Shown: positions 42,315-64,000 of the stretch, piece by piece | Layout: every line of letters begins with the position of its first letter | How positions within the stretch are numbered: position 1 is the stretch's first letter | Assembly (NCBI RefSeq): GCF_002368415.1 | Contig: NZ_AP018290.1 | Location: forward strand, 1,491,470-1,555,469 | Source: Calothrix sp. NIES-4105 | GTDB lineage: Bacteria > Cyanobacteriota > Cyanobacteriia > Cyanobacteriales > Nostocaceae | Direction of reading: 5' to 3' | DNA length: 64,000 nt | Made by a program: the position numbers and the translations under genes | Notes under the pieces: model-generated | Databases searched by the model: none | Seen by the model: the letters and a program-made list of their open reading frames with translations, nothing else | Told to the model about the DNA's origin: nothing

Positions 42315-43487
42315 ATGAGTAAATTTGCCACTATTGATGGAAATGAAGCGGTTGCTCGTGTTGCTTACCGTTTGAATGAAGTTATTGCTATTTATCCAAT
42401 AACACCTTCTTCTGCTATCGGGGAATGGGCAGATGCTTGGTCTGCTGCTTCCCTTGGGAATTTATGGGGTACTGTTCCTAGTGTTATTGAAATGCAAAGC
42501 GAAGGAGGTGCTGTTGCTGCTGCTCATGGCGCCTTACAAGCTGGTTCACTAACAACAACTTTTACTTCATCACAAGGGTTGTTGTTGATGATACCTAATT
42601 TGTATAAGATTGCTGGGGAACTTACAAGTGCTGTAATTCACGTTGCCGCACGCGCGCTTGCGACTCATGCACTATCAATATTTGGCGACCATAGTGATGT
42701 AATGGCAGCACGTGCGACTGGGTTTGTGATGTTATGTTCAGCTTCGGTACAGGAAGCACATGATTTTGCTTTGATAGCTCAAGCTGCAACTCTCAAAGCA
42801 CGAGTTAGCTTTATGCATTTCTTCGATGGTTTCCGTACTTCTCATGAAGTGCAGAAGGTAGAGTTATTACAAGATAATGATTTAAAAGCGCTTATAGATG
42901 AAGATTTAATTATTGCACACCGTGCGCGCGCTCTCACTCCTGACCGTCCTGTGTTACGGGGAACAGCTCAAAACCCCGATGTATATTTTCAATCTAGAGA
43001 AGGCGCCAATCCTTATTACCAAGCTTGTCCAGATATAGTTCAGCAAGTAATGGATGATTTTGGACAGCGTACAGGTAGACATTACAAGATATATGAATAT
43101 CACGGTGCCAAGTCAGCCCAGAAAGTTATCGTTATTATGGGGTCGGGATGTGAAACAGTACACGAAACAGTAGATTATTTAAATGCGCGCGGTGAAAAAG
43201 TCGGTGTTGTGAAAGTGCGGTTATATCGTCCCTTCGATGTAAAAAAATTTGTAGATGTATTACCCAGTACCGTAAAATCAATAGCTGTTCTCGACCGTAC
43301 CAAAGAACCTGGAAGTGCTGGAGAACCACTTTATTTAGATGTAGTCACCGCTATTCACGAAGCTTGGTCACAAACTTCCAACTCCCCACTCAGCACTCAG
43401 CACTCAGCACTCAGCACTCCTAAAATAGTTGGTGGTCGTTACGGGTTGTCATCTAAAGAATGCTATACAATTCAGAGTACATTCTAA
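42315..43487 (+). CDS. nifJ: Pyruvate:ferredoxin (flavodoxin) oxidoreductase, 5' part only, cut at a recombinase junction
   Basis: 390 residues against about 1190 for full NifJ. Domain I is intact: SKFATIDGNEAVARVAYRLNEVIAIYPITPSS, MQSEGGAVAAAHGALQAGS, TTFTSSQGLLLMIPNLYKIAGE, and domain II RPFDVKKFVDVLP, LDRTKEPGSAGEPLY. Near the end, a heptamer repeat (43386-43420, encoding SPLSTQHSALSTP) is inserted in frame. The conserved KIVGGRYGLSSKE is followed not by F-T-P but by CYTIQSTF and a stop, so homology breaks near 43461. The [4Fe-4S] and TPP domains are missing. The recombinase ATG touches the stop codon. NifJ feeds electrons to nitrogenase. Confidence 0.9.
   Translation: MSKFATIDGNEAVARVAYRLNEVIAIYPITPSSAIGEWADAWSAASLGNLWGTVPSVIEMQSEGGAVAAAHGALQAGSLTTTFTSSQGLLLMIPNLYKIAGELTSAVIHVAARALATHALSIFGDHSDVMAARATGFVMLCSASVQEAHDFALIAQAATLKARVSFMHFFDGFRTSHEVQKVELLQDNDLKALIDEDLIIAHRARALTPDRPVLRGTAQNPDVYFQSREGANPYYQACPDIVQQVMDDFGQRTGRHYKIYEYHGAKSAQKVIVIMGSGCETVHETVDYLNARGEKVGVVKVRLYRPFDVKKFVDVLPSTVKSIAVLDRTKEPGSAGEPLYLDVVTAIHEAWSQTSNSPLSTQHSALSTPKIVGGRYGLSSKECYTIQSTF
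43386..43420. repeat. Heptamer STRR (CACTCAG) inside nifJ
   Basis: Four to five tandem CACTCAG units in coding sequence, which keep the reading frame and add a Ser/Thr-rich loop. Confidence 0.8.
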
Positions 43488-44942
43488 ATGTCGCGAAAAA
43501 CAATGATTGTAGGATACGCGCGTGTTAGCTCAAAACATCAAGCTGATACAAATGCATTAGAACAGCAAGTCGAGCGTCTGAAAAATGCGGGCGCTGAAAA
43601 GTTATATATAGATATTGAGTCAGGTTACAAAGGTAATCGCCGCGAAGAACTAGAGCGCTTACTTGAGGACGTTAGAGCGAGGCGAGTAACTAAAGTTGTA
43701 GTAACACGGGTTGACCGATTGTCGCGGCGTGGTAAGCAGTGGTTTACTTTGGTCGAAGATTTTATCAAAAGTGAAGTTCAGCTTGTGGTGTTGGACGAAC
43801 CAATCGACTTAACAACAGCAGCGGGTAAAATGCAAGCGGGTATTGTCGCTATACTTGCTCAACATCACAGCGACCAAAAAAGTGAATCGATACGTCACGG
43901 GTGGGAACATTTACGGAATAAAGGGGCTGCGACCAAGGCGCCGTTTGGCTTAATAAAAGTGGGAGAGAAGCTTGAGAGAGATAAGCGCCCGTTCTTATGT
44001 TTGATAAATCAAAAATCTGAATTATCGTCCTGCGGACAAACTTCGTTAACGCGCTACCAAATAGCGATTGATATTAAATCAACATTTCTTGAACAACGAA
44101 GTATCAGGCGATGTTTACAAGGGATTAATCAAAAATATGGCATTTGGATAAAGTCGCATCATAATAAATGGGCTGGACGTATTGCGCTTGATATGTTTAG
44201 ATTTTCGGCACCTGGTCTTCGCTATTGGCTCAACTCACCCGTGTTACGTGGGCACACTCGCTACAGACAAGCTTCGGGGCAGTACGAAGAGCAAATAATT
44301 TATAACACCCACCCTGAAGAAATAATTATCACTGAAAGCGAATATTTAGAGATTAAGCAAATATTGGAGTGGAATAGAAACACGCGCGGTTTCGGTTCAA
44401 CACGCCAGTCACACCCACTCTCAGGACTAGTCATTTGCGCTGAGTGTAACAGTACGTGTTACAAAGGTTCTGGTTCATCAAAAAAACCATACTATCAATG
44501 TAAAAATTGGGCTACTCGCAGCTGTAGTCAACAAAAAATGGCACCTGCTTCTCTTATTGATAAAGCTGTAGTTGAAGCATTAGCGCAAAGAGCAGAACAG
44601 GTTGCTAACTATTCGTTAGACAAGACGGACGAATTAATTGAACCCGAAAACATTCGCGATTTACGCTCTGAGATTAGTAACCTCGAAGCACTAGGCAGTA
44701 ACAACCCAGCTGTTAAAGGCGCCATTGCTGAACTCAATAGTCAATTGCGGGTATTACTTGCTCAGGACAAGAGTTCAAGCACGCTCGACCGATACAAGTA
44801 TCAAATCCTGCGCGATACTTTCGGCGACACTGAATACTGGCAATTTTTAACAGATGAACAGAAAATTCCAATATACCGAGCTTTAATTAGCAAAATACTC
44901 GTTCGCGACGGGAAGCCTGTTTCGATTGAACTAAACGTGTAG
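43488..44942 (+). CDS. Large serine recombinase, XisF-like, at the nifJ junction
   Basis: 484 residues. The resolvase domain starts MIVGYARVSSKHQADTNALEQQVE (catalytic Ser about residue 14), with VVTRVDRLSRRGKQW and AGKMQAGIVAILAQ. The recombinase domain is about 185-300. A zinc ribbon, LVICAECNSTCYK...YYQCKNW...RSCSQQ (about 305-345), is followed by a coiled coil and the C-terminal tail. Length and order match XisF, which removes the fdxN element in differentiating heterocysts of Anabaena. The start (ATG 43488, or 43503) abuts the truncated nifJ stop and has no strong ribosome site, so it may be read from the nifJ promoter. Confidence 0.85.
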   Translation: MSRKTMIVGYARVSSKHQADTNALEQQVERLKNAGAEKLYIDIESGYKGNRREELERLLEDVRARRVTKVVVTRVDRLSRRGKQWFTLVEDFIKSEVQLVVLDEPIDLTTAAGKMQAGIVAILAQHHSDQKSESIRHGWEHLRNKGAATKAPFGLIKVGEKLERDKRPFLCLINQKSELSSCGQTSLTRYQIAIDIKSTFLEQRSIRRCLQGINQKYGIWIKSHHNKWAGRIALDMFRFSAPGLRYWLNSPVLRGHTRYRQASGQYEEQIIYNTHPEEIIITESEYLEIKQILEWNRNTRGFGSTRQSHPLSGLVICAECNSTCYKGSGSSKKPYYQCKNWATRSCSQQKMAPASLIDKAVVEALAQRAEQVANYSLDKTDELIEPENIRDLRSEISNLEALGSNNPAVKGAIAELNSQLRVLLAQDKSSSTLDRYKYQILRDTFGDTEYWQFLTDEQKIPIYRALISKILVRDGKPVSIELNV

Positions 44943-45375
44943 CTGGTAGAGGCGCCTCCTTCGTCATTGAAAAGTTTCAGAAAACACTGTTAATTAGCAA
45001 TTAGGTTCTAACTTATCATTAATCAGCCTTGACCCGGGTAGCATAAGCACAAACTAATATTGCTTGCAACGACAAAAAGGGGCGAATTGTTCAAGTATGA
45101 ACGTTTTGGGTAGTGGCGCCACTCTGTGCGGAATGTGGGTTTTAACTGTCTTAACTGTCTAACTATCTTCCCATTAATTTTTTAAGTGTCTTAAATGTCC
45201 TTGTACGCATATTTAATTATTGATATGATTTTAAATGGATAAAACAACTTTTAGCAAAGGAAAAATAGCAATGTCTACAAAAACTGGTTTCTCAAGAGGT
45301 AATTCCTAAACAGCAGAAATTGTAAATGATGTATGTGAATGGTAATATATTCGTAAGTACCTTTAAATAAACAAT
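44943..45375. other. Intergenic stretch with a possible tiny reading frame
   Basis: AT-rich. At 45271 an ATG with AAGGA 12 bases upstream opens MSTKTGFSRGNS, then a stop, after which the same frame reads TAEIVNDVCEW to a second stop. Either it is a 12-residue peptide or a decayed small gene. Nothing else is seen. Confidence 0.3.
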
Positions 45376-45777
45376 ATGAATTTATCTGATACTGACATAG
45401 AAATTTTGCTTTTTGGCAAATGGCGTTTTGATATAGATTTGGAAAAAAATGCTATTGAATTTAAGGATAATATGACTTATGAACGAACTACAATTCAAAC
45501 ATTTATTTTATCTAAACCTAAAGAATTAATAACAGGTAATAAATTTACTGGGGTATGGTATGTAGACGACGGCAGACTGTGTTTAATTGTTAAGACTGTT
45601 CCTAAATCTGTTTTTAATCTACAATTACCTATATTACCTAGGGTTTCTCTTGCAGATGGAGTCGCTGCTATAACTTCTTTATTTGTAACAGAACAATATA
45701 AAGTTATAGAAATTAATAATTCTCAATTTATTATGAGTGATAAAAACAAATCCTTTGTAGGGGTTAAAACAAATTAG
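45376..45777 (+). CDS. Hypothetical protein
   Basis: 133 residues. FGKWRFDIDLEKNAIEFKDNMTYERTTIQTF then GNKFTGVWYVDDGRLCLIVKTVP suggests a lipocalin-like or DUF-type small beta barrel, with the G-x-W and F-x-G-x-W-x-V-D-x-G pattern of small lipocalin-like proteins. The middle is hydrophobic (SLADGVAAITSLFV) and may associate with membrane. It is alone on the plus strand, convergent with the 847-residue gene (55 bases between stops). Confidence 0.5.
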   Translation: MNLSDTDIEILLFGKWRFDIDLEKNAIEFKDNMTYERTTIQTFILSKPKELITGNKFTGVWYVDDGRLCLIVKTVPKSVFNLQLPILPRVSLADGVAAITSLFVTEQYKVIEINNSQFIMSDKNKSFVGVKTN

Positions 45778-45832
45778 TAAAGGATGATACTAACACAAAC
45801 CTAAATATGGGTTTAACTGAAATTAGCCTTCG

Positions 45833-48376
45833 TTACTTTACCGACGTTTTTTTAACTTGACTAGTGTTTCCACTAACTTTTATTCCTAAAACTTTTAAAA
45901 TGTGACTGTTACTATTAGCAGCAATTGATGTCAACTCTTGACCCAAGATATAAAAACTCCCCGCAATACTAGCCCTATTGTAGAGTCCATTTTTTGCTTT
46001 TTTAATCGTTATCGTCGCATTTTTATTTTTGTTAACTCCTTTAAGGATAAAAATTCCACCAAAATTAAAGCTTCCAAATGCAGTTAATTTGCTGCTATTA
46101 ACACTAGCAATGATATTGGCAAAAGTATAACCTAAAAACTTTAAGTTTCCCGCAATACTGGCAGAATTATTAATATTACCATTAGCTGTGCTAAGTGTAA
46201 CTGTGGCGCCATTGAAAGCTAAAATACCGAAATTAAAATTACTTGCAGCTTGAAACCCACTGTTATTGATGCTGATACCTAACGAAGTGAACTTTTTACC
46301 AAGAAGAGTAACATCGCCAATACCATAAATCTTTTTATTCGTTAAATCAAGGTTGAAATTAGGAACACTCAGCTTCACTATATTTACTAAATTGATAACT
46401 GCATTGTTAATGGCGGTTTCGGAAGTGTTAAATGATAAAGTGCCGCTACCCAAAGATTGATTAAAAGCACTAATATCTGCTATCCCCATTGCACTTTGAT
46501 TTATCAAGTTAACTGTGAGGATGGGAATACTAACAGTTAAAAACCCTGCTAAACTGAGCTTGCTATTCTTCAATAACAAACTATTGTTAGTAATATCAAA
46601 GGTAATTCCTGCTAGGGTATTTCCTAGAACTGAAACCGTTCCTATACCACTACCACTACCAGATTTCATATCGACACTTAGAGCATCAACATCGATACTT
46701 AAAAAATTAGCAAAATTCAAATCAAAGTTTTTAAAGATAGCATTCGTAGGTGTAATTTTAAATTCAACATTGGCAATTTTATTGTTGAAAATTTCTACAC
46801 AACCATCACCGATGAAATATTGCTCAGTATCTGTCACTTTTAGTGCTAAATCTAAACTATTGTCATCCATTCCTCCAATTTTCACAAATCCCAAATTAAT
46901 TTCAGTAACTTTTAACGAACCTTCAATATTTCTAAAAGTTTTGTCTCCCTGAAGGATGAAAATTGCTTTATGACCCCAAGCTGTAATTATGCCATTAATT
47001 TCTAATCCTTCAGGTATCGGTTTCCCTGCAATTGTCGTAGGGAAGGGAGCATATTTAATTAAGGGTTTTTTTCCTTCTCCACCTCCATCTGTATTAATTG
47101 ATTCGATGTTTAAATCCACAAACTTGTCTAAAAAACCTAATGCTTTGTTCACTAAATCAGTTTGAGTAGCTTGTTTGAGAACGAAAGAATTAATTGGCCC
47201 CCGCCACAAATCTACTAAACCAACTACTTGATTGGTATTTAAAAGTAAAGCTAATTTTTCAGGGTCATTTGTATCAATGAGGAATGCCACGTTTAGGTAT
47301 ATTTGTTCCCATTTCAAATCACCGATGAAACCAAAGTTATCGAAGTAGGGAGGTAAATAAGTTCCGCCACCCTGAAAACCGATATTGCGAAATTCAGTTC
47401 CCACCAGTCCATAGGGATTAGACCAAGAATTTTCATCTTGTTGACAGAAGAATGCGGTTAAAGATTCGGGTTCGAGGGTGAGATTACCAGAGAGACATAA
47501 CGGATGTTCGTCTTTTTGTGTGGGGTCATAGCCTTGAAGAATAAGATTGCCAGTTAATCCGAAGTTTGGTTCTAAATCAGATTCAATATTTAACTTTATA
47601 AGCAGATTACTAAAAGTAGCACTAAATTTTTGAACAGAAAATAGCTGAATACTGCTAGGAATATTACCTGTTAGATTAACCTGTCCTATAGGATTAAAGC
47701 TAATAAGAGTACCTAAACAGTCAATTTTCAATTGATTATGAATAAAATTGCCAAAATTTGTCTTGATATTGCTAAAATTAATATCTCCGATAAAGTTAAA
47801 TCCTCTACTTAAATTAATTTGCCCTAGCTTTGAATGGGCATAGCAGTAGGTAATATTAGTTATAATTAATTCTGGATTGATTAAATTTAATTCGTTGAGA
47901 ATGGGAATTTGGTTTGTTAAACTGCTAAAATTAATGTCATTAGGTAATTGATATTTTAATGTAGTTTGCTTACTAAATACCAATTTAATATTTTGGCTAT
48001 TGAATAAGCCTTGAAGCCTTAATTCAATTTCTTGAATATTTTTAAAAATACCTAACTTTGGCGCCGATAATATAAATTCAGAACTGCCAAAAGTTCCGGC
48101 AATAATCTTATCAAGCGCCATATCCATGTATGGCACTGTACTAGAAGTGTCAAAAATATCGTCTAAATTTAATCGCAAATCATCAGCAAATTTCAAGTAA
48201 ATTTCTGAAGTTGACAATACTAAATCTATATTCTCTAAAGATTCAAGCTTTAATTTGATTGCTTCAGGTAGGGTAGTTCCTGCTAAATCGCTGAATAAGT
48301 TAATAATATATTTTGGATTTCTATTTGTTTCTAAATCAATAAATAACTCGTCCCAAGATTGAAAAGTATTAGACAT
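45833..48376 (-). CDS. Large unrecognised beta-rich protein, last gene of the NRPS operon
   Basis: 847 residues with no signal peptide. The second half (about 480-847) is built of repeating strands of the type G-x-(G/A)-x-V-x-(L/I)-L-G-x-x-(L/F)-x-x-(I/L) separated by Asn/Ser-rich turns (IGTVSVLGNTLAGITFDITN, YGIGDVTLLGKKFTSLGISI, AGNLKFLGYTFANIIA, AGSFYILGQELTSIA). This suggests a beta-solenoid or an elongated lipid-carrying fold of AsmA-like type (inference). The first half has similar but weaker strands. It starts 22 bases after the 556-residue gene, in the same direction as the NRPS genes. Its function is unknown. Confidence 0.6.
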   Translation of the reverse strand: MSNTFQSWDELFIDLETNRNPKYIINLFSDLAGTTLPEAIKLKLESLENIDLVLSTSEIYLKFADDLRLNLDDIFDTSSTVPYMDMALDKIIAGTFGSSEFILSAPKLGIFKNIQEIELRLQGLFNSQNIKLVFSKQTTLKYQLPNDINFSSLTNQIPILNELNLINPELIITNITYCYAHSKLGQINLSRGFNFIGDINFSNIKTNFGNFIHNQLKIDCLGTLISFNPIGQVNLTGNIPSSIQLFSVQKFSATFSNLLIKLNIESDLEPNFGLTGNLILQGYDPTQKDEHPLCLSGNLTLEPESLTAFFCQQDENSWSNPYGLVGTEFRNIGFQGGGTYLPPYFDNFGFIGDLKWEQIYLNVAFLIDTNDPEKLALLLNTNQVVGLVDLWRGPINSFVLKQATQTDLVNKALGFLDKFVDLNIESINTDGGGEGKKPLIKYAPFPTTIAGKPIPEGLEINGIITAWGHKAIFILQGDKTFRNIEGSLKVTEINLGFVKIGGMDDNSLDLALKVTDTEQYFIGDGCVEIFNNKIANVEFKITPTNAIFKNFDLNFANFLSIDVDALSVDMKSGSGSGIGTVSVLGNTLAGITFDITNNSLLLKNSKLSLAGFLTVSIPILTVNLINQSAMGIADISAFNQSLGSGTLSFNTSETAINNAVINLVNIVKLSVPNFNLDLTNKKIYGIGDVTLLGKKFTSLGISINNSGFQAASNFNFGILAFNGATVTLSTANGNINNSASIAGNLKFLGYTFANIIASVNSSKLTAFGSFNFGGIFILKGVNKNKNATITIKKAKNGLYNRASIAGSFYILGQELTSIAANSNSHILKVLGIKVSGNTSQVKKTSVK

Positions 48377-48397
48377 AAGTAAATTAGTATAAATAAT

Positions 48398-50068
48398 TTA
48401 TTCTACTACTAAATCATCGTTACAAATTTTTATCCGATAAAAGAATAAGTGCATTTGCCAAACTAACCAAGAACCTACACGCCATGCTCCCATTGAAAGG
48501 TGTTCAGCAGATGATGGCGATAAGCCAAAAGTATCTTGATCATACTGTAACCATTGCGCGGGTAAATGTCCTATCGGTGTTGTAGGGGATAATTCAAAAG
48601 TTAACTGATTGTAATTTAACCAGTTTCCCTGTTTTCGCCAGCCAAGGCGATCGCCTAGCCTCTTTTCTGCTTCATAGTCTACTTGACAACCCATTTCGCT
48701 CCAAATACTTTGCTGAACACTGAAACCGAAGTAACCCTGGCTGTATTCTTTCCACAATTTATCAATGGTTTGGAGGTCTTGACAAGAAAATTTATCAATA
48801 TCTTCCTTATAAACTTCATTCCAATAACTCTTGCCTATGACTTTTAGCATTAATTTAGTGGTTTCAATATCAGCTTCTTTCCAGTTATGCTCTTGCAGGA
48901 GGTCTTGCAGTTTGCTATAATCAATGTTCGTTTTAAATTCTTTGGTGAAAGTAGCATTACTATTAGCCTGTCTTTTTAATCTAGTTTGAGCATCAGAGAG
49001 AGGCGCCACAGAAACAGAATTTGTTTGGGGTATTCCTATCTCTTTTGTTTGAACGGTAAGTTCTTTAGAGATATGATTCGATATTGATTCAATTTCTTTG
49101 TCTACAGAAAAGAGATTATCGGCTAAGTCAAAATTCTGGCGCCAGTCTAATAATTGGCACTGAATTAAAGCATCTTTTAATCTTTCTTTCTTTTCATTAG
49201 TCGATACCATAAAATCTAAAAAAGTCTCAGAAATACTATGATTTTCTTTGGTTATTAAAAAATTTGACTGATACTTTAAAATATTATCTGCTAAATTTTT
49301 GATGTCTCCAACAGTTACGCAAAAATCCTCATCTACTTTTACTACTGCATCTATTAAAGATTGAAAGGGACTAAAGTAATCTTGTAAATAATTTTCAAAA
49401 TTAATTGCTGTTTCGGCTATTTCTACTATTTCTTGACGAACTTTTTGGGCTTTTCTTTGATATTCGTAAATTTCTTGATATACTTCCAACTCTTTAGCTA
49501 CTTGTTGAACGATTTGCTTTTGATTTTTAGTATCTTCTGCCAGTGTTTTAAGTCCTTCACTAAGCAATTTGATTTTTTCTAACATCAAAAAACTAGCATT
49601 GCTTAATAGCAAAAGTGATTTAAAGTTTTCTTGTTTTTCCAATTTTAATTCATCGAGTACTTTTTGATTTTGATAATTTTTAATCTCTAGCTTTTTTATT
49701 TCATCATTCAAACTTTTTATTTCTAAGTATTTTTGGATGAACAACTTTCTCAAATCATCAGTCAGCTTCGACAAAAAAATTTGATAACTTTCCTTATAAG
49801 TCTCTAGAAAATCGATAAGGTGACTGTAATCTTTGATTAAAATTTGACTTTCGTCCAAAATTCTCTCTTGAGTAATTTCTTCTTTCCACTTAATTATTCC
49901 CCATATCTGATAATAACAAACGCCTTCTTTAATTAATCTTCGACGTTCTTTGATTTTTTTTTGAATAGCTTTTAATCTGGCATTTTTTAGGACAGGTAAT
50001 TTGTAGGTCCGTTCATAAATCGTAATCTTTTTGTAAGTAACTAGTTGCCTTTGCTGTATAGTAAGCAT
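48398..50068 (-). CDS. Unrecognised coiled-coil protein in the NRPS operon
   Basis: 556 residues with no membrane segment. Residues about 20-330 are predominantly charged helices with coiled-coil periodicity (FIQKYLEIKSLNDEIKKLEIK, QNQKVLDELKLEKQENFKSLL, EVYQEIYEYQRKAQKVRQEIVE). The C-terminal part is globular and Trp-rich (SYWNEVYKEDIDKFSCQDLQTIDKLWKEY, then RLGDRLGWRKQGNWLNYNQ, MGAWRVGSWLVWQMHLFFYR). No family is recognised. It lies 8 bases after the ABC transporter stop, so co-translation is likely. A role tied to peptide export or storage can only be guessed from its place. Confidence 0.6.
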   Translation of the reverse strand: MLTIQQRQLVTYKKITIYERTYKLPVLKNARLKAIQKKIKERRRLIKEGVCYYQIWGIIKWKEEITQERILDESQILIKDYSHLIDFLETYKESYQIFLSKLTDDLRKLFIQKYLEIKSLNDEIKKLEIKNYQNQKVLDELKLEKQENFKSLLLLSNASFLMLEKIKLLSEGLKTLAEDTKNQKQIVQQVAKELEVYQEIYEYQRKAQKVRQEIVEIAETAINFENYLQDYFSPFQSLIDAVVKVDEDFCVTVGDIKNLADNILKYQSNFLITKENHSISETFLDFMVSTNEKKERLKDALIQCQLLDWRQNFDLADNLFSVDKEIESISNHISKELTVQTKEIGIPQTNSVSVAPLSDAQTRLKRQANSNATFTKEFKTNIDYSKLQDLLQEHNWKEADIETTKLMLKVIGKSYWNEVYKEDIDKFSCQDLQTIDKLWKEYSQGYFGFSVQQSIWSEMGCQVDYEAEKRLGDRLGWRKQGNWLNYNQLTFELSPTTPIGHLPAQWLQYDQDTFGLSPSSAEHLSMGAWRVGSWLVWQMHLFFYRIKICNDDLVVE

Positions 50069-50075
50069 GATGAGG

Positions 50076-51893
50076 TTAATTTATTGTAATTTGATTATTT
50101 TGGGGAGGATTATTAATAATTTCGTTGGCTTTTTGATGGCGATAATCCTCCACTGACAAGAGTTGCCAACTGGAATTTTGTGAAAGTTCCACAACCCATT
50201 GATGATAATTAAATAAACTCTCTCGATGCCCAACACTTATATATGTTGTTTTCGTTTGTTGTAACTGTTGATATAAATTCGCTTCATTTTTTAAATCTAA
50301 AGCACTGGTTGCTTCATCTAAGATAGTAAAGCTAGGATGAGTAATTAACAGTCGCGCGAAAGCAAGGCGTTGTTGTTCTCCCAACGATAATATATTTTCC
50401 CAAGGAACTTCAGTATCAAAGCCTTCAACTCGACTTAGCAAGTTTTGCAGGTTTACTTGTTGCAAAACTTCTTTGAGTTCTGCATCTGTCATTTGACGAT
50501 TAGTATTAGGATAAAGTAACTGTTCGCGCAAAGTTCCCAAAATGATATAAGGACGTTGGGGCAAAAACAGCACTTCTTCTAGGGGAGGTCGCACCAGACG
50601 ACCAGTTCCCGCATTCCATAAGCCAGCTATCGCTCTCAATAGAGAACTTTTCCCTCGACCACTTGGGCCAACAATTAGTAAACCTTCTCCCCTTTGAACA
50701 GAAAGTGACAAATCTTCGACGATCACCTGCTCATAATTAGGCGTTTGTAAAGTAACATGCTCAAAAGCGAGATGGTTTTCTTCTATTGTTTTAATTGTGT
50801 TCACATTTTCAGGTTGCTTAGTAACTTCTTCTAAAGCATTTGAAAACTCAGTTAAACGTTCAACGTAACTGGAAAATCTTCCGGAATTTGCAAATTCTCT
50901 GATTATTTCTGCCATTGCAGAGGCAAACTGATTACACGCTAGACTGGCTTGGGCAATTAGTCCAAAATCAATTTCACCTCTAATCTGTAAAGGACCGAAT
51001 ACTATAAATGGAAATATTTGGATAACGGCCTGATATCCTCTGTTAAAAATATCCTGACTTCTCTCCCAGTCAATCTTGCGTTTAGTACTTTGAATAATCT
51101 GATAAAATTTTCGCTGAATTATATTTAATTCTTGGTTCTCTCCCCGAAAAAAAGCTATTGATTCAGCATGATTACGAACATGAGTGATACTGTAAGTATA
51201 GTCTGCTTGAGATTCTAGTTCCTCTTGTTTAATCTTATTCAATTCTTGAGCTAAGTAAACAGCAATTAAATTGCCGATAATGGTATAACCAATCAATGCA
51301 ATTGCAACAAATTTAGATAGTGACCATATAATTACTAAAAAAGTTAACATTTCCAGCACTTTTTCTAGGAAAGTAGCCGAAAAACTGAGAGCATTGTTGG
51401 TAAGAGGTTCGATTTGCTGGGCTATTCGTTGATCTGGATTATTAACATCTGATTTAAAGTTTATTTTATAATAAGCACGATTGCTCAAATATTTTTCTAA
51501 AATCTGATTATTTAGCCATTGATACCAATCAAGAGCAATTTTTTTTCTAACAAATTTAGAAAATCCTATTAAGAGCGTTACGCAGGCAAGAGCGCCACCG
51601 TAAACCCATAAAATCTGAACAAGTTTAGTAATATCTCTTTCTTCAACAAAAACATCAAGTAAATAGCGGTTAACGAAGCTATTCAAGGCAGTTACAGCCA
51701 CGAGCATGACGATTAACAATATCAGGAGAATGAGCATTCCCCATGAACGAATCACATCTGAAAATGCTCTTCCTTTTGCATCTGTTGGATACCAGTAAGG
51801 TCCAGCGATAGCTCTGACATTCTCCCAAAATTGATTAAAGCCTGGAGAAGAATCATTCGTTGAGGTTTTATTAATAAAAGTTGTAGATTGCAT
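50076..51893 (-). CDS. aptE: ABC exporter, fused permease-ATPase (YddA/SbmA-like), AptE candidate
   Basis: 605 residues. The membrane domain (about 50-330) is of the ABCD/SbmA type: six helices including MLILLILLIVMLVAVTAL and FLVIIWSLSKFVAIALIGY, with the conserved WYQWLN, NPDQRIAQQI and YSYTYSITHVRNHAE-like segments (TYSITHVRNHAESIAFFRG). The ATPase has Walker A GPSGRGKSSLL (about 410-420), signature LSLGEQQRLA and Walker B FTILDEATSALD. In anabaenopeptin clusters a transporter of this kind (AptE) follows aptD. It lies 52 bases after the aptD stop on the same strand and would export the peptide across the inner membrane. Confidence 0.75.
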   Translation of the reverse strand: MQSTTFINKTSTNDSSPGFNQFWENVRAIAGPYWYPTDAKGRAFSDVIRSWGMLILLILLIVMLVAVTALNSFVNRYLLDVFVEERDITKLVQILWVYGGALACVTLLIGFSKFVRKKIALDWYQWLNNQILEKYLSNRAYYKINFKSDVNNPDQRIAQQIEPLTNNALSFSATFLEKVLEMLTFLVIIWSLSKFVAIALIGYTIIGNLIAVYLAQELNKIKQEELESQADYTYSITHVRNHAESIAFFRGENQELNIIQRKFYQIIQSTKRKIDWERSQDIFNRGYQAVIQIFPFIVFGPLQIRGEIDFGLIAQASLACNQFASAMAEIIREFANSGRFSSYVERLTEFSNALEEVTKQPENVNTIKTIEENHLAFEHVTLQTPNYEQVIVEDLSLSVQRGEGLLIVGPSGRGKSSLLRAIAGLWNAGTGRLVRPPLEEVLFLPQRPYIILGTLREQLLYPNTNRQMTDAELKEVLQQVNLQNLLSRVEGFDTEVPWENILSLGEQQRLAFARLLITHPSFTILDEATSALDLKNEANLYQQLQQTKTTYISVGHRESLFNYHQWVVELSQNSSWQLLSVEDYRHQKANEIINNPPQNNQITIN

Positions 51894-51945
51894 AAATTAA
51901 AAATTAGTTTAATGACACCATTTTCCCATAACTCATAGCTATTTT

Positions 51946-54900
51946 CTACATAGCTAGATTTACCATCGCCACCTTTAATTCTGTAGCTAAGATTTTTACA
52001 TCGGGTTCATAAAGCATTCGACCGTGGTTACCAGGTACAGATATTACTTTAACAGGTTTTTGAGTATAAGCTTGCCATCCCCAATCCGGTAGATCGTAAT
52101 CGGAAATAGCTTGGAGTTCTTGTAAAACAATATCATGAACTTCTTGAGCGCGGAATAAAATAATAGGGGCAGAAATTGAATGATGAGGCTGATAATTTGC
52201 GTAATTAAGTGTCAGCACTTTCATCGCTCTCATATTCGTTTTGAGTAAAGAAAGGGTTGAGTGTTCTGGTAATATATTATAACGGTATAAATACTCAGCA
52301 GCTAGATACCAACGGGCTTGGTCATCGGGTTCTGCGGCTAAATCATCGTATTTCAAACCTAAAGAAACTCCCTTTAAGACTTCAGTCCGTTGAATTAATT
52401 GCCAAATCCAATCAAGATCTGCTAATTGGGTTATATACTCAGGGCGAGAAACTAGTCCGGCATCAAAAATAGCCAGCAAACCCACCTTTTCACCTTGCTG
52501 TTCCAGTTGGGCAGCCATTTCAAAAGCAACTGCACAACCTGAAGAGTATCCTGCTAGTATGTATGGACTCTTGGTTTTCTGTTGGCGCAATACCGTTAGA
52601 AGTTGACTTGCATGGGCTGCTACTGAGTCAGGGAGTTTACTCAGTCCGTCTCGTCCGGGAGTTTCAAGTCCATACACTGGTCGGTCAGTTCCTAAATTGA
52701 TTGCCAAATCTCGAAAATAGAAGCCATGTCCGTTGGCGCCAGGAATACAAAATAGAGGCGCCGCATCTGGGTTATGTTGGAATAATAGTAAATCGGGATG
52801 GGATTGAAATTCAGTATGACATAATTGTTGTGCCAATTGAGCAATAGTAGGATTTTGAAATAAACTGCTTAAAGGAAGTTGTTGCCCAAACACCTGTTGA
52901 ATATTATTAAGCAATTTGACCGCCAATAAAGAATGACCGCCCAGGTCGAAAAAGTTATCATGAATCCCAATTTCTTGAAGTTCGAGTACAGCAGACCATA
53001 CCTCTGCTAGTTGTTTTTCAACTTCGTTGCGTGGGGCTTCATATGAACCTTCAACCCCATTATTGGGAGCAGGTAAAGCTTTACGATCAATTTTGCTATT
53101 GGGACTTAAAGGCAATTTATCCAGTGTTACGATCTGAGCAGGTATCATGTAATCAGGTAGACGGGATTTAAGATAATTTTTTAATTCGATAGACTTTGCA
53201 GTCGTAATTCCCGTTACATAAGCAATTAAACTCTGGTTGCTCTCATTATATAAGGTAACAATTGCTTCTTTAACTAATGGATGTTGTAACAAAATTGACT
53301 CAATCTCACCGAGTTCAATTCTAAAGCCCCTTAGTTTAATTTGCTCGTCAATACGACCCAAGTATTCTAAGTTACCGTCGAGCAGCCATCGTGCCAAGTC
53401 GCCTGTTTTATAAATTCGCTCAGTTTGTCCAAATAATTCAACTTCAAGAAATTTTTCGGCTGTAGTATCAGGACGGTTGAGATAGCCTCTGGCTAAAGCG
53501 GCGCCAGCAATACACAATTCTCCTGGTATTCCTGGGGGTAATGGTTGATTGTATGCATCTAAAATATAGATGCGAACATTGGGTAAGGGTTGACCGATGG
53601 TTGGTTTTTTAGCGTTAGGTTCACAAAGAGCGATACTTGCACAAACCGTAGATTCCGTTGGTCCGTAGGCATTAAAAAAACGCTGTCCTTTTGCCCACTG
53701 GGTAACTAATTCTGTTGGGCAAGCTTCACCTGCAGTAACTAAGACTTGCAAATCAGGTAACGTTGCTTGAGGTAATAGGGATAAGACTGAAGGAGGTAAC
53801 GTGACATGGGAAATTTTGTGATAATCTAAGAAGTTCACTAAGTAAAGACTTGGTAACAATGTTTCTTTTTTAGCAAGATATAAACAGGCGCCTACAGAGA
53901 GAGTAGTAGCAATTTCCCAAATTGAGGCATCGAAGCTTATTGAAGCAAACTGAAGCAAACGGCTTTGGGGTTGAATTTGCAATACTTGGTTAACTGCCAA
54001 AGTCATATTGACCAGTCCTCGATGCTCAATCATCACCCCTTTGGGTCTTCCCGTCGAACCAGAGGTATAAATCACATAAGCCAAATTTAATGGTGTACTT
54101 TGAGGACTGGGGTTATCTGTTAATTCGGCAATTTCCCGATCTAAACAAATAATGTTAGGCGGGTTTTCCAGTTCAGTTATTGGTAATTGGTCTAGTAGGG
54201 AACTTTGGGTCAGCAACACCGATGTCTTAGAATCTTGTAGCATGAACTCAATACGCTCAGGTGGATAATTGGGATCAATCGGCACATAAGCAGCACCCGC
54301 TTTGAGGATACCAAGTACACCAATAATCATCTCAATAGAGCGATCTATACAGATACTAATTAAGGTATCTGGCTGAATTTGGTGATTTTGAATGAGATAA
54401 TGAGCGAGTTGGTTGGCTTTTTGATTCAGTTGCTGGTAAGTTAGGCTTTGTGATTCAAACACCAAAGCAAGATGATTAGGGTTTTTAGCAACAGTAGCTT
54501 CAAACAGGTCAACAAAAGTTTTATCGTGGGGATAATCTGTTTGTGTTTGATTCCAGCATTGAAGTTGTAGACGTTCCGCCTCTGTCATTAAAGGCAGAGT
54601 ACTAATAGGTTGGTTTGGGTTATCAATAATTCCCTTAAGTAAAACTTCAAATTGTTCTGCCATCCTTTGTATAGTACTCTTCTCGAAGAGGTCGGTAGCA
54701 TATTCCCAAAAGCAACTTAACTGATTGTCTGATTCTATGACCAGAAGCGTTAGGTCAAACTTAGCAAACGGACAACTTAAATCGAACCATTGAGTCTCTA
54801 GTCCTCCTAAACTCAGATCGGGACTTTCATTATTTTCCAGTGCTAACATCACCTGGAATAAAGGATTATGACTCATGCTGCGCTCTGGTTGTAACTTTTC

Positions 54901-56121
54901 TACCAAAAGCTCAAAGGGGATGTCTTGGTGAGCATAGGCATCTAAACAAGAGGAGCGAGTTTGTTGCAGGAACTCGATAAAACTTTGCTCAGGCTTTATT
55001 TGACTACGCAACACAAGGGTATTGACAAAAAAGCCGATTAACCCTTCGGTCTGGCTATGGGTACGGTTGGCAACGGGAGAACCAATACACAAATCGTTGT
55101 GGCGACTGTAACGAGAAAGTAGAATACTCAAAGCCGCCAACAAGGTCATAAATAGGCTTGCCCCAAGTTGAAGACTGAAGGTTTTAACGGCAGCGGTTAA
55201 TTCTTTAGTGAGAGAGTAGATACAGCGCGCGCCTCGGTAGCTTTGCTGTGCTGGGCGAGGATAATCGGTAGGCAATTCCACTAATGGGGAAGCATCCTTA
55301 AGTTGATGTTTCCAATAGTTGATCTGGTTTTCTAATACCTGCCCTTGTAAGCAGTTTCGTTGCCAGTTTGCATAGTCACTGTATTGAATGGGTAGGGGCG
55401 CCAGGTTTGGCGATTGACCTTGGGTAAAGGCGGTATAAGCTTGGCATAACTCACCAACAAATACTCCCATTGACCAGCCATCACTGATAATATGGTGCAT
55501 ATTAATTAGCAACACATATTTCTGCTGTTGCAATTGTAGTAGTTTGGCTTTAAACAAAAGGCCAGTATTTAAGTCAAACGTTTCTTGAGCATGAGCATTG
55601 ATTAAACGCTTGATAGTTGACGAGTGGGGATGTTGATCTTCGTTTTGCCAGTCTAGTACTGTTAGAATTTCGATTTCGTCTAAATTTTGGATAACAACTT
55701 GAGGCTGTCCTGCCACTGTAGGAAAATACATCCTAAGACTAGCATGACGGTTCAGCAGATAAGCCAAACTAGAGCGCAGGGCATCAATATTAAGGGCGCC
55801 ATCCAGTTGTAAAGCCATCGGCATATTGTAGGTAGGTGACGACCCAGTGAGTTGTGCTAACAGCCAGAGGCGTTGTTGAGCAAAGGAAAGGAGTTTTGGG
55901 GTTTCCTCTCCTAAAGCAGGAATTTTCTCTGTGATGATTGTGGTAGTAGCATTTAAGAATGCTAATATATCCGCTTTATTGGTTTGAATTTCCTGCTTCA
56001 ACTCAGAAGTGAGGGCGTTTTTGCTAGTGCGAATTCGTAACTTATCATCTTCAGCCCAAATTCGGCAGCCCATGTTCTGCAAACGAAGCATTAAAGAAAC
56101 TACGTGTTCTTTTTGTGTCAT
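51946..56121 (-). CDS. aptD: Nonribosomal peptide synthetase AptD-like: TubC-C-A-T-TE (Phe, release)
   Basis: 1391 residues. TubC docking domain (1-55), condensation domain (MHHIISDGWS about 209), adenylation domain (YTSGSTGRPKGV about 689; GELCIAGAALARGY), carrier domain (NFFDLGGHSLLA, Ser about 1062) and thioesterase (AGYSSG about 1192, VPGNHG His about 1370). Pocket residues aligned to GrsA are D-A-W-T-V-A-A-V-C, a Phe code. One module plus TE and Phe equals AptD of anabaenopeptin clusters, whose TE closes the ring on a Lys side chain. It overlaps the aptC stop by 4 bases. Confidence 0.82.
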   Translation of the reverse strand: MTQKEHVVSLMLRLQNMGCRIWAEDDKLRIRTSKNALTSELKQEIQTNKADILAFLNATTTIITEKIPALGEETPKLLSFAQQRLWLLAQLTGSSPTYNMPMALQLDGALNIDALRSSLAYLLNRHASLRMYFPTVAGQPQVVIQNLDEIEILTVLDWQNEDQHPHSSTIKRLINAHAQETFDLNTGLLFKAKLLQLQQQKYVLLINMHHIISDGWSMGVFVGELCQAYTAFTQGQSPNLAPLPIQYSDYANWQRNCLQGQVLENQINYWKHQLKDASPLVELPTDYPRPAQQSYRGARCIYSLTKELTAAVKTFSLQLGASLFMTLLAALSILLSRYSRHNDLCIGSPVANRTHSQTEGLIGFFVNTLVLRSQIKPEQSFIEFLQQTRSSCLDAYAHQDIPFELLVEKLQPERSMSHNPLFQVMLALENNESPDLSLGGLETQWFDLSCPFAKFDLTLLVIESDNQLSCFWEYATDLFEKSTIQRMAEQFEVLLKGIIDNPNQPISTLPLMTEAERLQLQCWNQTQTDYPHDKTFVDLFEATVAKNPNHLALVFESQSLTYQQLNQKANQLAHYLIQNHQIQPDTLISICIDRSIEMIIGVLGILKAGAAYVPIDPNYPPERIEFMLQDSKTSVLLTQSSLLDQLPITELENPPNIICLDREIAELTDNPSPQSTPLNLAYVIYTSGSTGRPKGVMIEHRGLVNMTLAVNQVLQIQPQSRLLQFASISFDASIWEIATTLSVGACLYLAKKETLLPSLYLVNFLDYHKISHVTLPPSVLSLLPQATLPDLQVLVTAGEACPTELVTQWAKGQRFFNAYGPTESTVCASIALCEPNAKKPTIGQPLPNVRIYILDAYNQPLPPGIPGELCIAGAALARGYLNRPDTTAEKFLEVELFGQTERIYKTGDLARWLLDGNLEYLGRIDEQIKLRGFRIELGEIESILLQHPLVKEAIVTLYNESNQSLIAYVTGITTAKSIELKNYLKSRLPDYMIPAQIVTLDKLPLSPNSKIDRKALPAPNNGVEGSYEAPRNEVEKQLAEVWSAVLELQEIGIHDNFFDLGGHSLLAVKLLNNIQQVFGQQLPLSSLFQNPTIAQLAQQLCHTEFQSHPDLLLFQHNPDAAPLFCIPGANGHGFYFRDLAINLGTDRPVYGLETPGRDGLSKLPDSVAAHASQLLTVLRQQKTKSPYILAGYSSGCAVAFEMAAQLEQQGEKVGLLAIFDAGLVSRPEYITQLADLDWIWQLIQRTEVLKGVSLGLKYDDLAAEPDDQARWYLAAEYLYRYNILPEHSTLSLLKTNMRAMKVLTLNYANYQPHHSISAPIILFRAQEVHDIVLQELQAISDYDLPDWGWQAYTQKPVKVISVPGNHGRMLYEPDVKILATELKVAMVNLAM

Positions 56122-59100
56122 AGTTCAATTTCCTCTTCGTCTGAGTTTAAAGGTTGCATATCGACAGCGGAATTAACCCAAATGCAGGTATCTATATAAT
56201 TCGCCAATTCATTGAGGGTGGGGTACTCAAATACAGAGCGCAGCGGCAGTTCTACTTTGAAGGTGTCACGGATGCGCGCGCACAGTTGGGTGGCTAATAG
56301 GGAATGTCCCCCCAAGTTGAAGAAGTTATCCTGGCGGGAAATAGCCTCATATTTAAGTAGCTTCGCCCATACTTCAGCAAGTAATTTTTCTGTCGATGTT
56401 ACAGGTAATTCAATGTCTGTTAACGAAACTGCTTCATAAGGCGCCTTTAATGCTAAACGATCTACTTTTCCATTTGGTGTCAGTGGCAGTTTTTCTAAAA
56501 CAATGAAATGGCTAGGAATCATATACTCAGGTAGAGATTTGCCTAGAAAATCCTGCCATTCGGCGAACATTGCTGGATCAACTTCATTGGCGCCATATTG
56601 TAACGGTTGATTTGCGTAATTTTGCCAGGGTTTCAGTCGCAAATTTTGCTTTTGATTAAATCGTGGTATTTTCTCCCATTCAGGAATATTTTTCTGAAAA
56701 ACAACATCGTAATAGGCACCTGTGGAACTATATTGTATAAAAGGTGTATAAGGTAAATCTCGCGCTAAAGTTCGGAATACTTCTGGTTCTATACCTGATT
56801 TAAGTGCAACTGCCGCTTTTAAATCCGCAACAGTACCATTTAATTGAGCAATTTGTTCTAACAGCGCCATTTCTGAAGTCAGACGCGCGTTAGGAATATT
56901 TTTAATACCTAACAATTCCGGTTGCTGAGATGTTAAAATTTTCTCGATTTCCAGTAGTTGATCGTGCCAATCTAACCATTGAGGTTCTGCTATGGGAGTC
57001 TCTACCGGATCCAAATGTAAAATAACGTTATAACGAAAACGGCTCATTTCCGTTTGAGCATAACCCCGTTGCAATTGAATTTGCACATGACTAATTCGAG
57101 GAATTCGTTGTTTGAGGGCGATAAAGAAATCAGGATCAATCAGTAATTCGCCTTCGCTACGGATACTTTTTTGAATCTTTTGCCGCAAGTCCTTGATTGA
57201 TAACTTATCGGAGGCGCCATAAAACTCAACTGCCGTGTGGAAAGCTTCCAGCAGATGGAGATTTCGTACATCCCCAATAAAAATAGCTCCTTGAGTTGTC
57301 ACAGCGTTAACAGCCCCCTCCAAAACTTCCAAAAAGTAATCCAAGGAGGGAAAATACTGGATGACGGAATTCATAATTACTAAGTCGTAAGCACTTGTTT
57401 CAATACCGTCAAACTCATTAGCTACACACTGTTTTAAGGTAATATTATTAAGAGACTGCTGTTTGAGATGTTGTTTAATATAATGCAATGCTTCAGGTGA
57501 AAAATCTGTACCTAGATAATCCTGACAATGAGGCGCAATTGTAAATAATAACATCCCTGTACCGCAACCAATTTCCCAAACTCGTTTTGGTTTAAGTTCC
57601 AGAATTTGATCGACTATTGTATCTCTCCATTCTTGCATCGCCACTTTAGAATACGGTTGCCCTGTATATCTATCAGTCCAGCCAGCTAAATTGAGAGTTG
57701 GATCATCTGATGAATTGTAGTTAAAGTAAGCATCATCGAATACTTGCTGCCAAAGATGTACCTGTTGACCTTGGAGATCATCATTTTCTGTTTGTGTTAG
57801 AACAATATAAGCCACTAGACGTTGATCGAAATCAGTGTCCTGCCGTACAATGGCAACAGCTTCCTTAATTTTTGGATGTTTGACTAATGACGCTTCAATC
57901 TCACCTAATTCAATCCGAAAACCACGAAGTTTGACCTGATGATCAATGCGACCTAAGTATTGCAGATTGCCATCAGGTAGCCAACGGGCTAAATCACCCG
58001 TTTTATAAACCCGCTCATTGTCGAACAAATTGAGGTTAATAAATTTTTCAGCGCTAAGATCGGGACGATTTAAGTAACCCTGTGCTAAACCTGCACCTGC
58101 AATACAGAGTTCGCCAGGAATACCAGGGGCAAGTAGTTGGTTGTAGCTATCTAGAATATAGACACGGGTGTTGCTTATTGGCTTGCCGATAGTTGGTTCA
58201 TGTTGAGCATTTTTGGCAACTTTCGTAAAAGTAGAGTAAGTTGTGTCTTCAGAAGGACCATAAAGATTATAAACTTCTGTTACAAATGTGTTTTTATATA
58301 AAGCCTGTACCAAACTATTTTTTAATGGTTCGCCAGCTAAATTGATAACTTGAACACTTGCCGGAATGGCATTCATATTGAGCAGTTCAGCAGCAGCACT
58401 CGGTACAGTATTAATTAATGTAATCGGTACAATACTTTTACGTGCTTGCTCAATGTAAAGTGCATTTTCAACCACAATGACACTACCACCTAGAGTCAGG
58501 GGGACAAAAATTTCAAAAATGGAGAGATCGAAACAAATTGAGGTTGATGCTAAGACACCTGCTAGTTGTTCTGCACTATAGACTGAATGCGCCCACTTGA
58601 GCAGAACTACTGGACTATAGTGTGCAATGGCAACACCTTTAGGGCGCCCAGTGGAACCGGAAGTATAAATAACATAAGCCAAATCATCAGGACTACTTCG
58701 TAAGTTAGGATTGTCCGTTGGCTGATCAGTCCATGTTTCTCGCTCCAGAAACACTACTTGACAGGAATTTTGCAGTTTTTCTAGGGAAAGTTGCTTTTTG
58801 ATCTGGTTGGTTGTAAGTAATACAGAAGCATTACTATCTTCGAGGATTAAATTAATGCGTTCTTGGGGATAACGCGGATCGATTGGCACATAAGCCCCAC
58901 CTGCTTTGAGGATAGCAAATATACCGATGATCATTTCCAGTGAGCGCTCTACACAAATTCCGATTAATGGGTTATTAGGTAACTTTTGTTCTCTTTTTAG
59001 TTGCAATAGGTAATAGGCAAGCTGATTAGCTTTTTGGTTTAGTTGTTGATAACTTAGGCTGCAATCTTCAAACACTACCGCAATGTTATTAGGTGTTTTT

Positions 59101-63791: not shown

Positions 63792-63826
63792 AATAGTTAT
63801 TATTGAAATATAGATTTTTTTGAATA

Positions 63827-63880
63827 TAACCACAAAGACACATAATCCGGAGGATTTCCCGCAGGGTAGAACACAAAGAA
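63827..63880. repeat. CACAAAGA dispersed repeat between NRPS genes
   Basis: AACCACAAAGACACA is followed by TAATCCGGAGGATTTCCCGC and AACACAAAGAAAG: a member of the CACAAAGG family interrupted by an imperfect palindromic insert (TCCGGAGGA). It sits in the aptB-aptC gap. Confidence 0.5.
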
Positions 63881-63902
63881 AGATTTACAAGTGATTTAAT
63901 TA

Positions 63903-64000
63903 TCAAAGAAGTAATTGCTGTGTCACTTCTTCTTCTGATAACTGATTGACTTCGCTTAAAATCTGTGCTAATGCATCATTTTCTGCTTGCTCAATCTGTT
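63903..64000 (-). CDS. C-terminal tail of an upstream NRPS (probably AptB), cut by the window edge
   Basis: The last 31 residues are visible: a helical stretch with IEQAENDALAQILSEVNQLS followed by EEEVTQQLLL and a stop. A (L/I)-x-x-(V/I)-x-x-L-S-(E/D)-E-E-V/A tail is the usual C-terminal docking helix of cyanobacterial NRPS and PKS proteins. In anabaenopeptin clusters the gene before aptC is aptB (Val/Ile module). It is 111 bases upstream of aptC on the same strand. Confidence 0.55.
   Translation of the reverse strand, partial: QIEQAENDALAQILSEVNQLSEEEVTQQLLL

Follow-up and report, generated by a model that had tools for sequence, protein, structure and literature searches.

A predicted excision element of 127 kb in the nifJ gene of Calothrix sp. 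NIES-4105, and its relatives at the same codon

In the cyanobacterium Calothrix sp. NIES-4105, the nifJ gene (encoding pyruvate:ferredoxin/flavodoxin oxidoreductase) is split by about 127 kb of DNA. The region described here, which lies in a stretch of 64,000 nucleotides (the window, C1:1491470-1555469; the genome comprises 12.04 Mb in 8 contigs), is very probably the left edge of an interruption element that is excised during development, its excision being predicted from sequence. Elements in nifJ are a kind already known, because such elements are in print (Hilton 2016, PMC4874684), and the NIES-4105 element is a further, larger example. Four genomes carry an element at the same nifJ codon; one recombinase and largely different cargo at a single site suggest live mobile islands and not frozen remnants.

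The split nifJ gene and the ends of the element

The features that define the split gene are the following.

42315..43461, plus strand: nifJ 5' part, codons 1 to about 382 (TIGR02176 positions 1-367, E 1.3e-187; Pfam POR_N and PFOR_II)
43455..43461, plus strand: left core direct repeat AAAGAAT, an exact repeat, preceded by TCT
43455..64000, plus strand: in-window portion of the nifJ interruption element, with boundaries set by the core repeat and by the joining of the flanks into a NifJ of 1192 amino acids
43462..43484, plus strand: end of the truncated nifJ frame, supplied by the element (CYTIQSTF), together with the left inner arm CTATACAATTCAGAG, which is inverted relative to the right inner arm CTCTGTATTGTAAAG
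43488..44942, plus strand: xis, a XisF-family large serine recombinase of 484 amino acids (NF041201, 435 bits against a cut-off of 375; Pfam Resolvase and Zn_ribbon_recom; motif YARVS, which we take to be catalytic)
C1:1661741-1664158, plus strand: nifJ 3' part (TIGR02176 positions 362-1166), opening with KEFTPAM
C1:1661747-1661753, plus strand, outside the window: right core direct repeat AAAGAAT, an exact repeat, preceded by TCA

The initial annotation of this DNA had placed the end of NifJ homology near base 43461, after GGRYGLSSKE, with a XisF-like recombinase directly behind it on the same strand, at the edge of an element larger than 20.5 kb. All of this is borne out: within a truncated frame at 42315-43487, homology ends past GGRYGLSSKE at base 43460-43461, the recombinase ATG is at 43488, its score against NF041201 exceeds the cut-off, and the whole element, the left edge of which lies in the window, measures 126,823 bp (C1:1534924-1661746). 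The annotation also proposed a search for a nifJ 3' part farther along in the same orientation, with an F-T-P-A-M-like start, and this is the part that opens with KEFTPAM; a whole-genome TIGR02176 search puts the two parts about 127 kb apart, both on the plus strand. It further expected a short direct repeat, and its candidate core, TCTAAAGAAT, was correct to within one base of the exact repeat AAAGAAT. The contrary possibility that it named, a second intact nifJ with this copy simply truncated, failed: the same search gave three matches and no intact nifJ elsewhere in the genome, the third match being a 98-amino-acid frame at E 1.6e-4. When the flanks are joined at the core, the NifJ of 1192 amino acids is restored in frame, and both nifJ parts and xis are open frames free of stops.

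Relatives of the recombinase (E <= 1e-80) are found in 10 of 217 genomes of the GTDB family, taken as Nostocaceae; four of these 10, NIES-4105 included, belong to its genus (seven genomes sampled), at 83-100% identity. The genus carriers besides NIES-4105 (G000) are Dulcicalothrix desertica PCC 7102 (G339), Calothrix sp. PCC 7103 (G340), and the metagenome-assembled genome Calothrix sp. FI2-JRJ7 (G343), whose recombinases are 98, 96, and 83% identical, respectively, and lie at the same insertion codon. Thus nifJ is split at this codon in four of the seven genus genomes; in the other three it is uninterrupted and spans the junction as SSKEFTPAM or SSKEFTPTM. The elements differ greatly in size:

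NIES-4105: 126,823 bp
PCC 7102: 6,208 bp
PCC 7103: 33,629 bp
FI2-JRJ7: 79,116 bp

Across the order, 158 of 291 genomes have a nifJ match, and among the matches listed the open frames shorter than 1180 amino acids are those of G000 (393), G217 (394), G272 (400), G214 (622), and G197 (1007). G217 and G272 were rejected as cases of interruption at this codon because their frames lie at contig edges and the sequence, read by eye, continues across the junction. FI2-JRJ7 has a further interruption of nifJ, where an element of about 36.5 kb (G343:C80:~5060-41590) separates PITPSS from AIGEW; it has an apparent core TCAG, 12-bp inverted inner arms CAACGTGAGGTT (read by eye), a serine recombinase at its right end, and at its left end an open reading frame (ORF) of the small family described below.

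Besides their two ends, the four same-codon elements share little by DNA comparison (matches of at least 150 bp at 1e-10). A left-end xis block of about 1.5 kb is common to all six element pairs. At the right end, a shared block is found for NIES-4105 and PCC 7102 (243 bp, 94%), PCC 7102 and PCC 7103 (205 bp), PCC 7102 and FI2-JRJ7 (193 bp), and PCC 7103 and FI2-JRJ7 (267 bp), with no match at these thresholds between NIES-4105 and either PCC 7103 or FI2-JRJ7. NIES-4105 and FI2-JRJ7 have one further 260-bp piece in common (95%). The elements of PCC 7102 and PCC 7103 share 686 bp, inverted, that carries an AbrB-like regulator gene (L082:8451-8981 and L083:6783-7313, respectively); about 210 bp of this is also present in FI2-JRJ7, and at the same thresholds no match to it is found in the NIES-4105 element. 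At the protein level, only the recombinase among the 67 NIES-4105 ORFs of at least 90 amino acids matches any of the 81 ORFs in the other three elements (1e-15).

The left core's first base and the start of the xis frame are 33 bp apart, and the xis ATG touches the stop of the nifJ fragment. This stop-to-ATG contact is present in all four same-codon elements and fits the proposed coupling of xis expression to nifJ transcription, with one deviation: in FI2-JRJ7 the ATG at the contact is not in the frame of the recombinase, which begins 16 bases further on. The five bases AAAGA are common to both ends in every one of the four elements, and the crossover is predicted at the AA of the core (43455-43456). 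The junction of the excised circle would be an imperfect palindrome centred on the core, with 16 of 22 pairs matching, a score reached by 7 of 2000 shuffles; over the four elements the score is 14-18 of 22 for the circle junction and 7-8 for restored nifJ. Such a palindromic circle junction would fit a large serine recombinase.

In Table 1 of Hilton, Meeks, and Zehr, nifJ is credited with 2 elements of 1 variant, and the paper describes gene content within a variant as highly variable (Hilton 2016, PMC4874684). Those two are presumably the elements of PCC 7102 and PCC 7103, strains that the paper names. They interrupt the same gene and have the same recombinase type as the element described here; if they are indeed that pair, the NIES-4105 element differs in its strain, in its size (126.8 kb as opposed to 6.2 and 33.6 kb), and in its cargo of nonribosomal peptide synthetase (NRPS) and graspetide genes.

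A small ORF at the right edge

For the question of what restricts excision to heterocysts and to a single direction, the right end of the element offers a concrete candidate gene. In all four same-codon elements there is an ORF of 49-56 codons at this end, read toward the core, the 56-amino-acid form being that of NIES-4105. It stops 34-51 bp short of the right core in the three relatives; in NIES-4105 it begins at C1:1661016, and at its 3' end lies a 524-bp insert (C1:1661164-1661687, 59-582 bp from the right edge) that resembles a miniature inverted-repeat transposable element, having the ends CTGAC...GTCAG and a 10-bp target duplication, GATAAAGAAC on both flanks. (The 56-amino-acid form is also recorded from a genome whose longest contig is 11,064,963 bp; C1 is 11,062,175 bp, and since the two are nearly equal yet distinct, NIES-4105 may have a sister strain that also carries this element.) The 26 homologues of the right-edge ORF are all unnamed or hypothetical, except for one with an odd label, and the core pattern of the family is LLRxAxLYxKIKHL.

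This family travels with XisF-like recombinases. A profile of nine ORFs, searched over the seven genus genomes, gave 15 strong places (E <= 8.1e-10), 10 beside a XisF-like recombinase and 5 at the far edges of nifJ elements; the six strong places that were not themselves profile rows all lie beside a recombinase. The six weak places (E 0.008-0.41) include one with a recombinase nearby and five without. A broader profile of 31 rows, 22 of them chosen by sequence and blind to context, was searched over the 217 family genomes and, at E <= 1e-6, gave 46 places distributed over 31 genomes. Forty of these lie by a recombinase on the opposite strand; in 38 of the 40 the two 3' ends overlap, by 17-113 bp, and in the other two they are 217 bp and 2.7 kb apart; five are nifJ far edges, namely the four at the NIES-4105 codon and that of the second FI2-JRJ7 nifJ element; and one (in G321) is at a contig edge. 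The 46-place linkage is a raw count, and the places are not all independent because some are profile rows. Not every recombinase in NIES-4105 has such a neighbour: at a nifK-associated recombinase (see below) there was no convincing 3'-end ORF by eye and no profile match, and the recombinase adjoining XisH at C1:3848k has no small partner among the strong places.

Small proteins that act with large serine recombinases are known from other systems. These recombinases often depend for excision on a directionality factor that is dispensable for integration, and the known factors share no significant similarity with one another and are mostly small (PMC5025042), although some are about 250 amino acids long, and Anabaena XisI is listed among the published factors (PMC5311408). 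In the SPbeta prophage, which interrupts spsM of Bacillus subtilis, the 58-amino-acid SprB is required for excision and sets its timing; there too, a large serine recombinase (SprA) is paired with a tiny protein without characterised relatives, and excision makes a gene whole again in a terminal cell line (PMC4191935). In the skin element of Clostridioides difficile, a gene is likewise restored in a terminal cell and a small element-encoded factor (CD1234, with the recombinase CD1231) controls excision (PMC5025042). Both systems are likened to the nifJ element by description and not by sequence: SPbeta is a prophage, whereas Pfam named no phage structural gene in the 53 of 67 NIES-4105 element ORFs scanned, and the skin element belongs to another lineage and another gene. 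A closer comparison is the fdxN element of Anabaena/Nostoc PCC 7120, whose XisF belongs to the same recombinase family (NF041201) and which, like the nifJ element as we interpret it, leaves a nitrogen-fixation gene precisely restored. Its excision is reported to need XisH and XisI, the roles of which are stated to be unclear (Hilton 2016, PMC4874684). The nifJ element, in contrast, is without XisH and has the ORF of unnamed family at its far edge.

The protein of about 50 amino acids may, with moderate support, be an accessory or directionality factor enabling excision, a role that fits because of its size, its recombinase linkage, and its position, in nifJ elements, at the att end opposite xis. 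In other words, the right-edge gene may switch the recombinase from pasting in to cutting out. A linked gene of another kind, whether regulator, antitoxin-like gene, or phage remnant, is a strong competitor, and that the ORF is such a regulator or remnant has about the same likelihood as that it is a directionality factor: the four nifJ-type ORFs have no Pfam match above cut-off, the family has no match among solved structures (best E 0.053), and the antisense overlap with xis beside most of the recombinases could be a regulatory arrangement. Set against this are the linkage to a XisF-like recombinase in 45 of the 46 places, with the remaining one at a contig edge, and the retention of the small ORF at the att end opposite xis although nifJ-element cargo largely differs; the small protein is encoded in the same element as the large serine recombinase and is conserved with it. 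No report of this small partner family was found among open-access titles and the opening parts of abstracts.

History of the element ends and the excision model

By distance and tree measures alike, the history of xis differs from that of its hosts. The synonymous distances (dS) of the two genes are these, xis against nifJ.

NIES-4105 and PCC 7102: 0.087 and 0.528
NIES-4105 and PCC 7103: 0.181 and 0.495
PCC 7102 and PCC 7103: 0.177 and 0.242
NIES-4105 and FI2-JRJ7: 0.617 and 0.465
PCC 7102 and FI2-JRJ7: 0.663 and 0.221
PCC 7103 and FI2-JRJ7: 0.699 and 0.235

In the nifJ tree, rooted on G342, NIES-4105 falls outside the other five genomes (100/100), and the nifJ data reject a clade of NIES-4105, PCC 7102, and PCC 7103 in the approximately unbiased (AU) test (p-AU 6.4e-11); the xis tree supports exactly this clade against FI2-JRJ7 (98/97). 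Identity is higher on the xis side of the core. To the left of the core, nifJ of NIES-4105 and PCC 7102 is 83-95% identical in 100-bp bins and 76% in the last bin, and to its right xis is 95-100% identical; across the core, the flanking 100-bp bins go from 76 to 97% for PCC 7102 and from 68 to 95% for PCC 7103 (both low last nifJ bins contain length differences, which for PCC 7102 fall in a stretch that resembles a repeat). Five of six relatives have the gene upstream of nifJ at 76-78% identity, and its distance from nifJ is similar in all; on the strength of this identity, the nifJ locus itself is therefore in place. At the other end, the right-edge ORF follows the xis pattern, with NIES-4105 and PCC 7102 nearest (dS 0.20, nonsynonymous distance, dN, 0.04) and FI2-JRJ7 farthest (2.22 and 0.20 from NIES-4105; 1.22 and 0.16 from PCC 7102), although there are only about 29 synonymous sites; counted per site, synonymous changes outnumber nonsynonymous ones in these pairs.

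These comparisons suggest that the element ends, xis together with the right-edge ORF, entered this codon more than once between species, probably as whole elements with later cargo turnover. Two results weigh on the other side: the AU test of the host-like grouping on xis is weak (p-AU 0.038), and the xis protein tree pairs NIES-4105 with PCC 7103, not PCC 7102, so that NIES-4105 and PCC 7102 are not the best xis pair. A single ancestral insertion, inherited vertically and with its cargo turned over later, would share this support from the AU test and would account directly for the identical codon in all four elements; the element-free state of three genomes could then be loss, and the dynamic content within one variant that is described in Hilton 2016 (PMC4874684) would be expected. 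The high xis identity would then be due to gene conversion or unusual constraint. This account is nonetheless rather unlikely, since the dS contrasts are opposite in sign (xis 0.087 and nifJ 0.528 for NIES-4105 and PCC 7102; xis 0.663 and nifJ 0.221 for PCC 7102 and FI2-JRJ7) and constraint would need to act in opposite directions; the rise in identity at the core for PCC 7102 and PCC 7103, length differences in the low bins notwithstanding, the identity of the gene upstream of nifJ, and the xis-like pattern of the right-edge ORF also speak for repeated entry. Neither transfer of xisF between species nor a conflict of xis and host trees at one codon was found among open-access titles and abstract starts.

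The proposed course of excision is as follows. In vegetative cells NifJ would not be made. During heterocyst formation, transcription of the nifJ fragment would read into xis, and the recombinase, which the right-edge protein plausibly lets excise, would join attL and attR at AAAGA, thereby restoring nifJ and releasing a 127-kb circle. Excision would also separate xis from the nifJ promoter. Several observations count against this scheme. The exact core is only 7 bp in NIES-4105 and 5 bp in FI2-JRJ7, where there is no repeat of at least 7; an NtcA-type box, GTAN8TAC, is absent within 500 bp upstream of nifJ in all seven genus genomes; none of the 27 XisH places in the genome falls within the element (C1:1534924-1661746); and the 524-bp insert alters the last residues of the NIES-4105 right-edge ORF and shifts this ORF away from the core. 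The HetR C-terminal domain is matched once in the NIES-4105 genome, and nitrogenase-component genes are present; neither proves heterocysts. That the element is dead or stranded, the insertion being real but xis no longer excising and nifJ a pseudogene in NIES-4105, is quite improbable: the insert would allow it, and NifJ is needed for fixing nitrogen under iron limitation according to Hilton 2016 (PMC4874684), so that its loss might be tolerated otherwise, but both nifJ parts and xis are open and stop-free, nifJ has a dN/dS of about 0.08-0.10 and xis one of 0.10-0.16 among the four genomes, and the cores and arms are intact.

A broader proposal is tentative and somewhat more likely to fail than to hold. 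In it, the recombinases of the nifJ elements and the other XisF-like recombinases that adjoin coxA and nifH pieces would use the partner of about 50 amino acids in place of XisH/XisI; the partner would be a one-way directionality factor; and recombinase, partner, and att sites would form a mobile cassette that re-invades the same codon with interchangeable cargo (natural-product clusters, CRISPR-Cas), which the heterocyst discards. A tiny partner that follows one branch of XisF-like recombinases provides a definite gene to work with.

Cargo and other interruption elements

The Pfam scan covered 53 of the 67 NIES-4105 element ORFs of at least 90 amino acids; two of the other 14 were scanned with NCBIfam only, in a scan of ten proteins, eight of them from this element. 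Within the window, Pfam identifies the following cargo genes.

48398..50068, minus strand: GUN4-domain protein
50076..51893, minus strand: ABC exporter-like protein
51946..56121, minus strand: NRPS with TubC_N, condensation, AMP-binding, carrier, and thioesterase domains
56118..63833, minus strand: NRPS with two condensation, two AMP-binding, and two carrier domains and one methyltransferase domain

The minus-strand NRPS cluster extends past the window to about C1:1565431 and comprises ORFs of 2191, 1105, 2571, and 1391 amino acids plus the ABC exporter, with 6 AMP-binding and 6 condensation-type domains, one methyltransferase, and a final thioesterase in all. A plus-strand NRPS group contains a UbiC-like lyase, an AMP ligase, a 2602-amino-acid protein with a methyltransferase, a 6171-amino-acid protein with a terminal thioesterase, and exporters. 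MvdC- and MvdD-family ATP-grasp ligases, both above the NCBI cut-offs, lie directly behind an ORF with TIKYPSD, which we take to be a microviridin-type motif, and the element therefore holds a microviridin-type graspetide cluster. Further cargo includes an AMP-ligase-carrier-thioesterase protein, a cyanovirin-N-domain protein, MATE and channel proteins, and, near the right end, a TrwB/TraD-like coupling protein. The other elements, as sampled, carry different genes: an amine oxidase and a VioB-like protein (917 bits, below the cut-off of 1250) in PCC 7103, and Cas1, Cas2, Cas10-, RAMP-, and Cas3-type proteins in FI2-JRJ7.

The NIES-4105 element has no tRNA. XisI had no match among the 53 Pfam-scanned ORFs, with no search aimed at its family, and the absence of phage structural genes from the same ORFs is by Pfam, PHROGs not having been searched; a pattern scan found no close recombinase relatives in viral contigs. 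(In Anabaena sp. 90, a prophage remnant is described inside an 80-kb nifH element, PMC3542288.) The idea that the cargo is native chromosome caught between distant att sites was rejected on one 20-kb piece (L022), which matches the six other genus genomes only piecemeal, the longest matches being 3.4 kb at 79% (G344) and 0.9 kb at 90% (PCC 7103), and which therefore looks accessory. The comparison of the four elements supports viewing the material between the ends as replaceable cargo. Natural-product genes sit where a nitrogen-fixing cell would discard them, an arrangement for which open-access titles and abstract starts yielded no precedent inside an interruption element.

Elsewhere in the genome, a nifK-like gene (the name reflects its place) is split at C1:3744348-3775626, its pieces, PF00148 positions 1-338 and 324-398, lying about 30 kb apart, with a serine recombinase frame at C1:3744753-3746276. 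Pairs of a serine recombinase and a small ORF adjoin, by eye, coxA pieces at two loci and an internal nifH piece (L003, L004, and L007; C1:3692-3697k, 3072-3076k, and 3837-3840k), and on this basis NIES-4105 seems to carry more than one or two such elements, several in all. A lone nitrogenase-component-like fragment (C1:1106112-1106288, PF00148 positions 1-58) is perhaps one side of an interrupted gene. Nine of the 27 XisH places have internal stops; in NIES-4105 this gene family appears widespread and in part decaying, and not an fdxN accessory alone.

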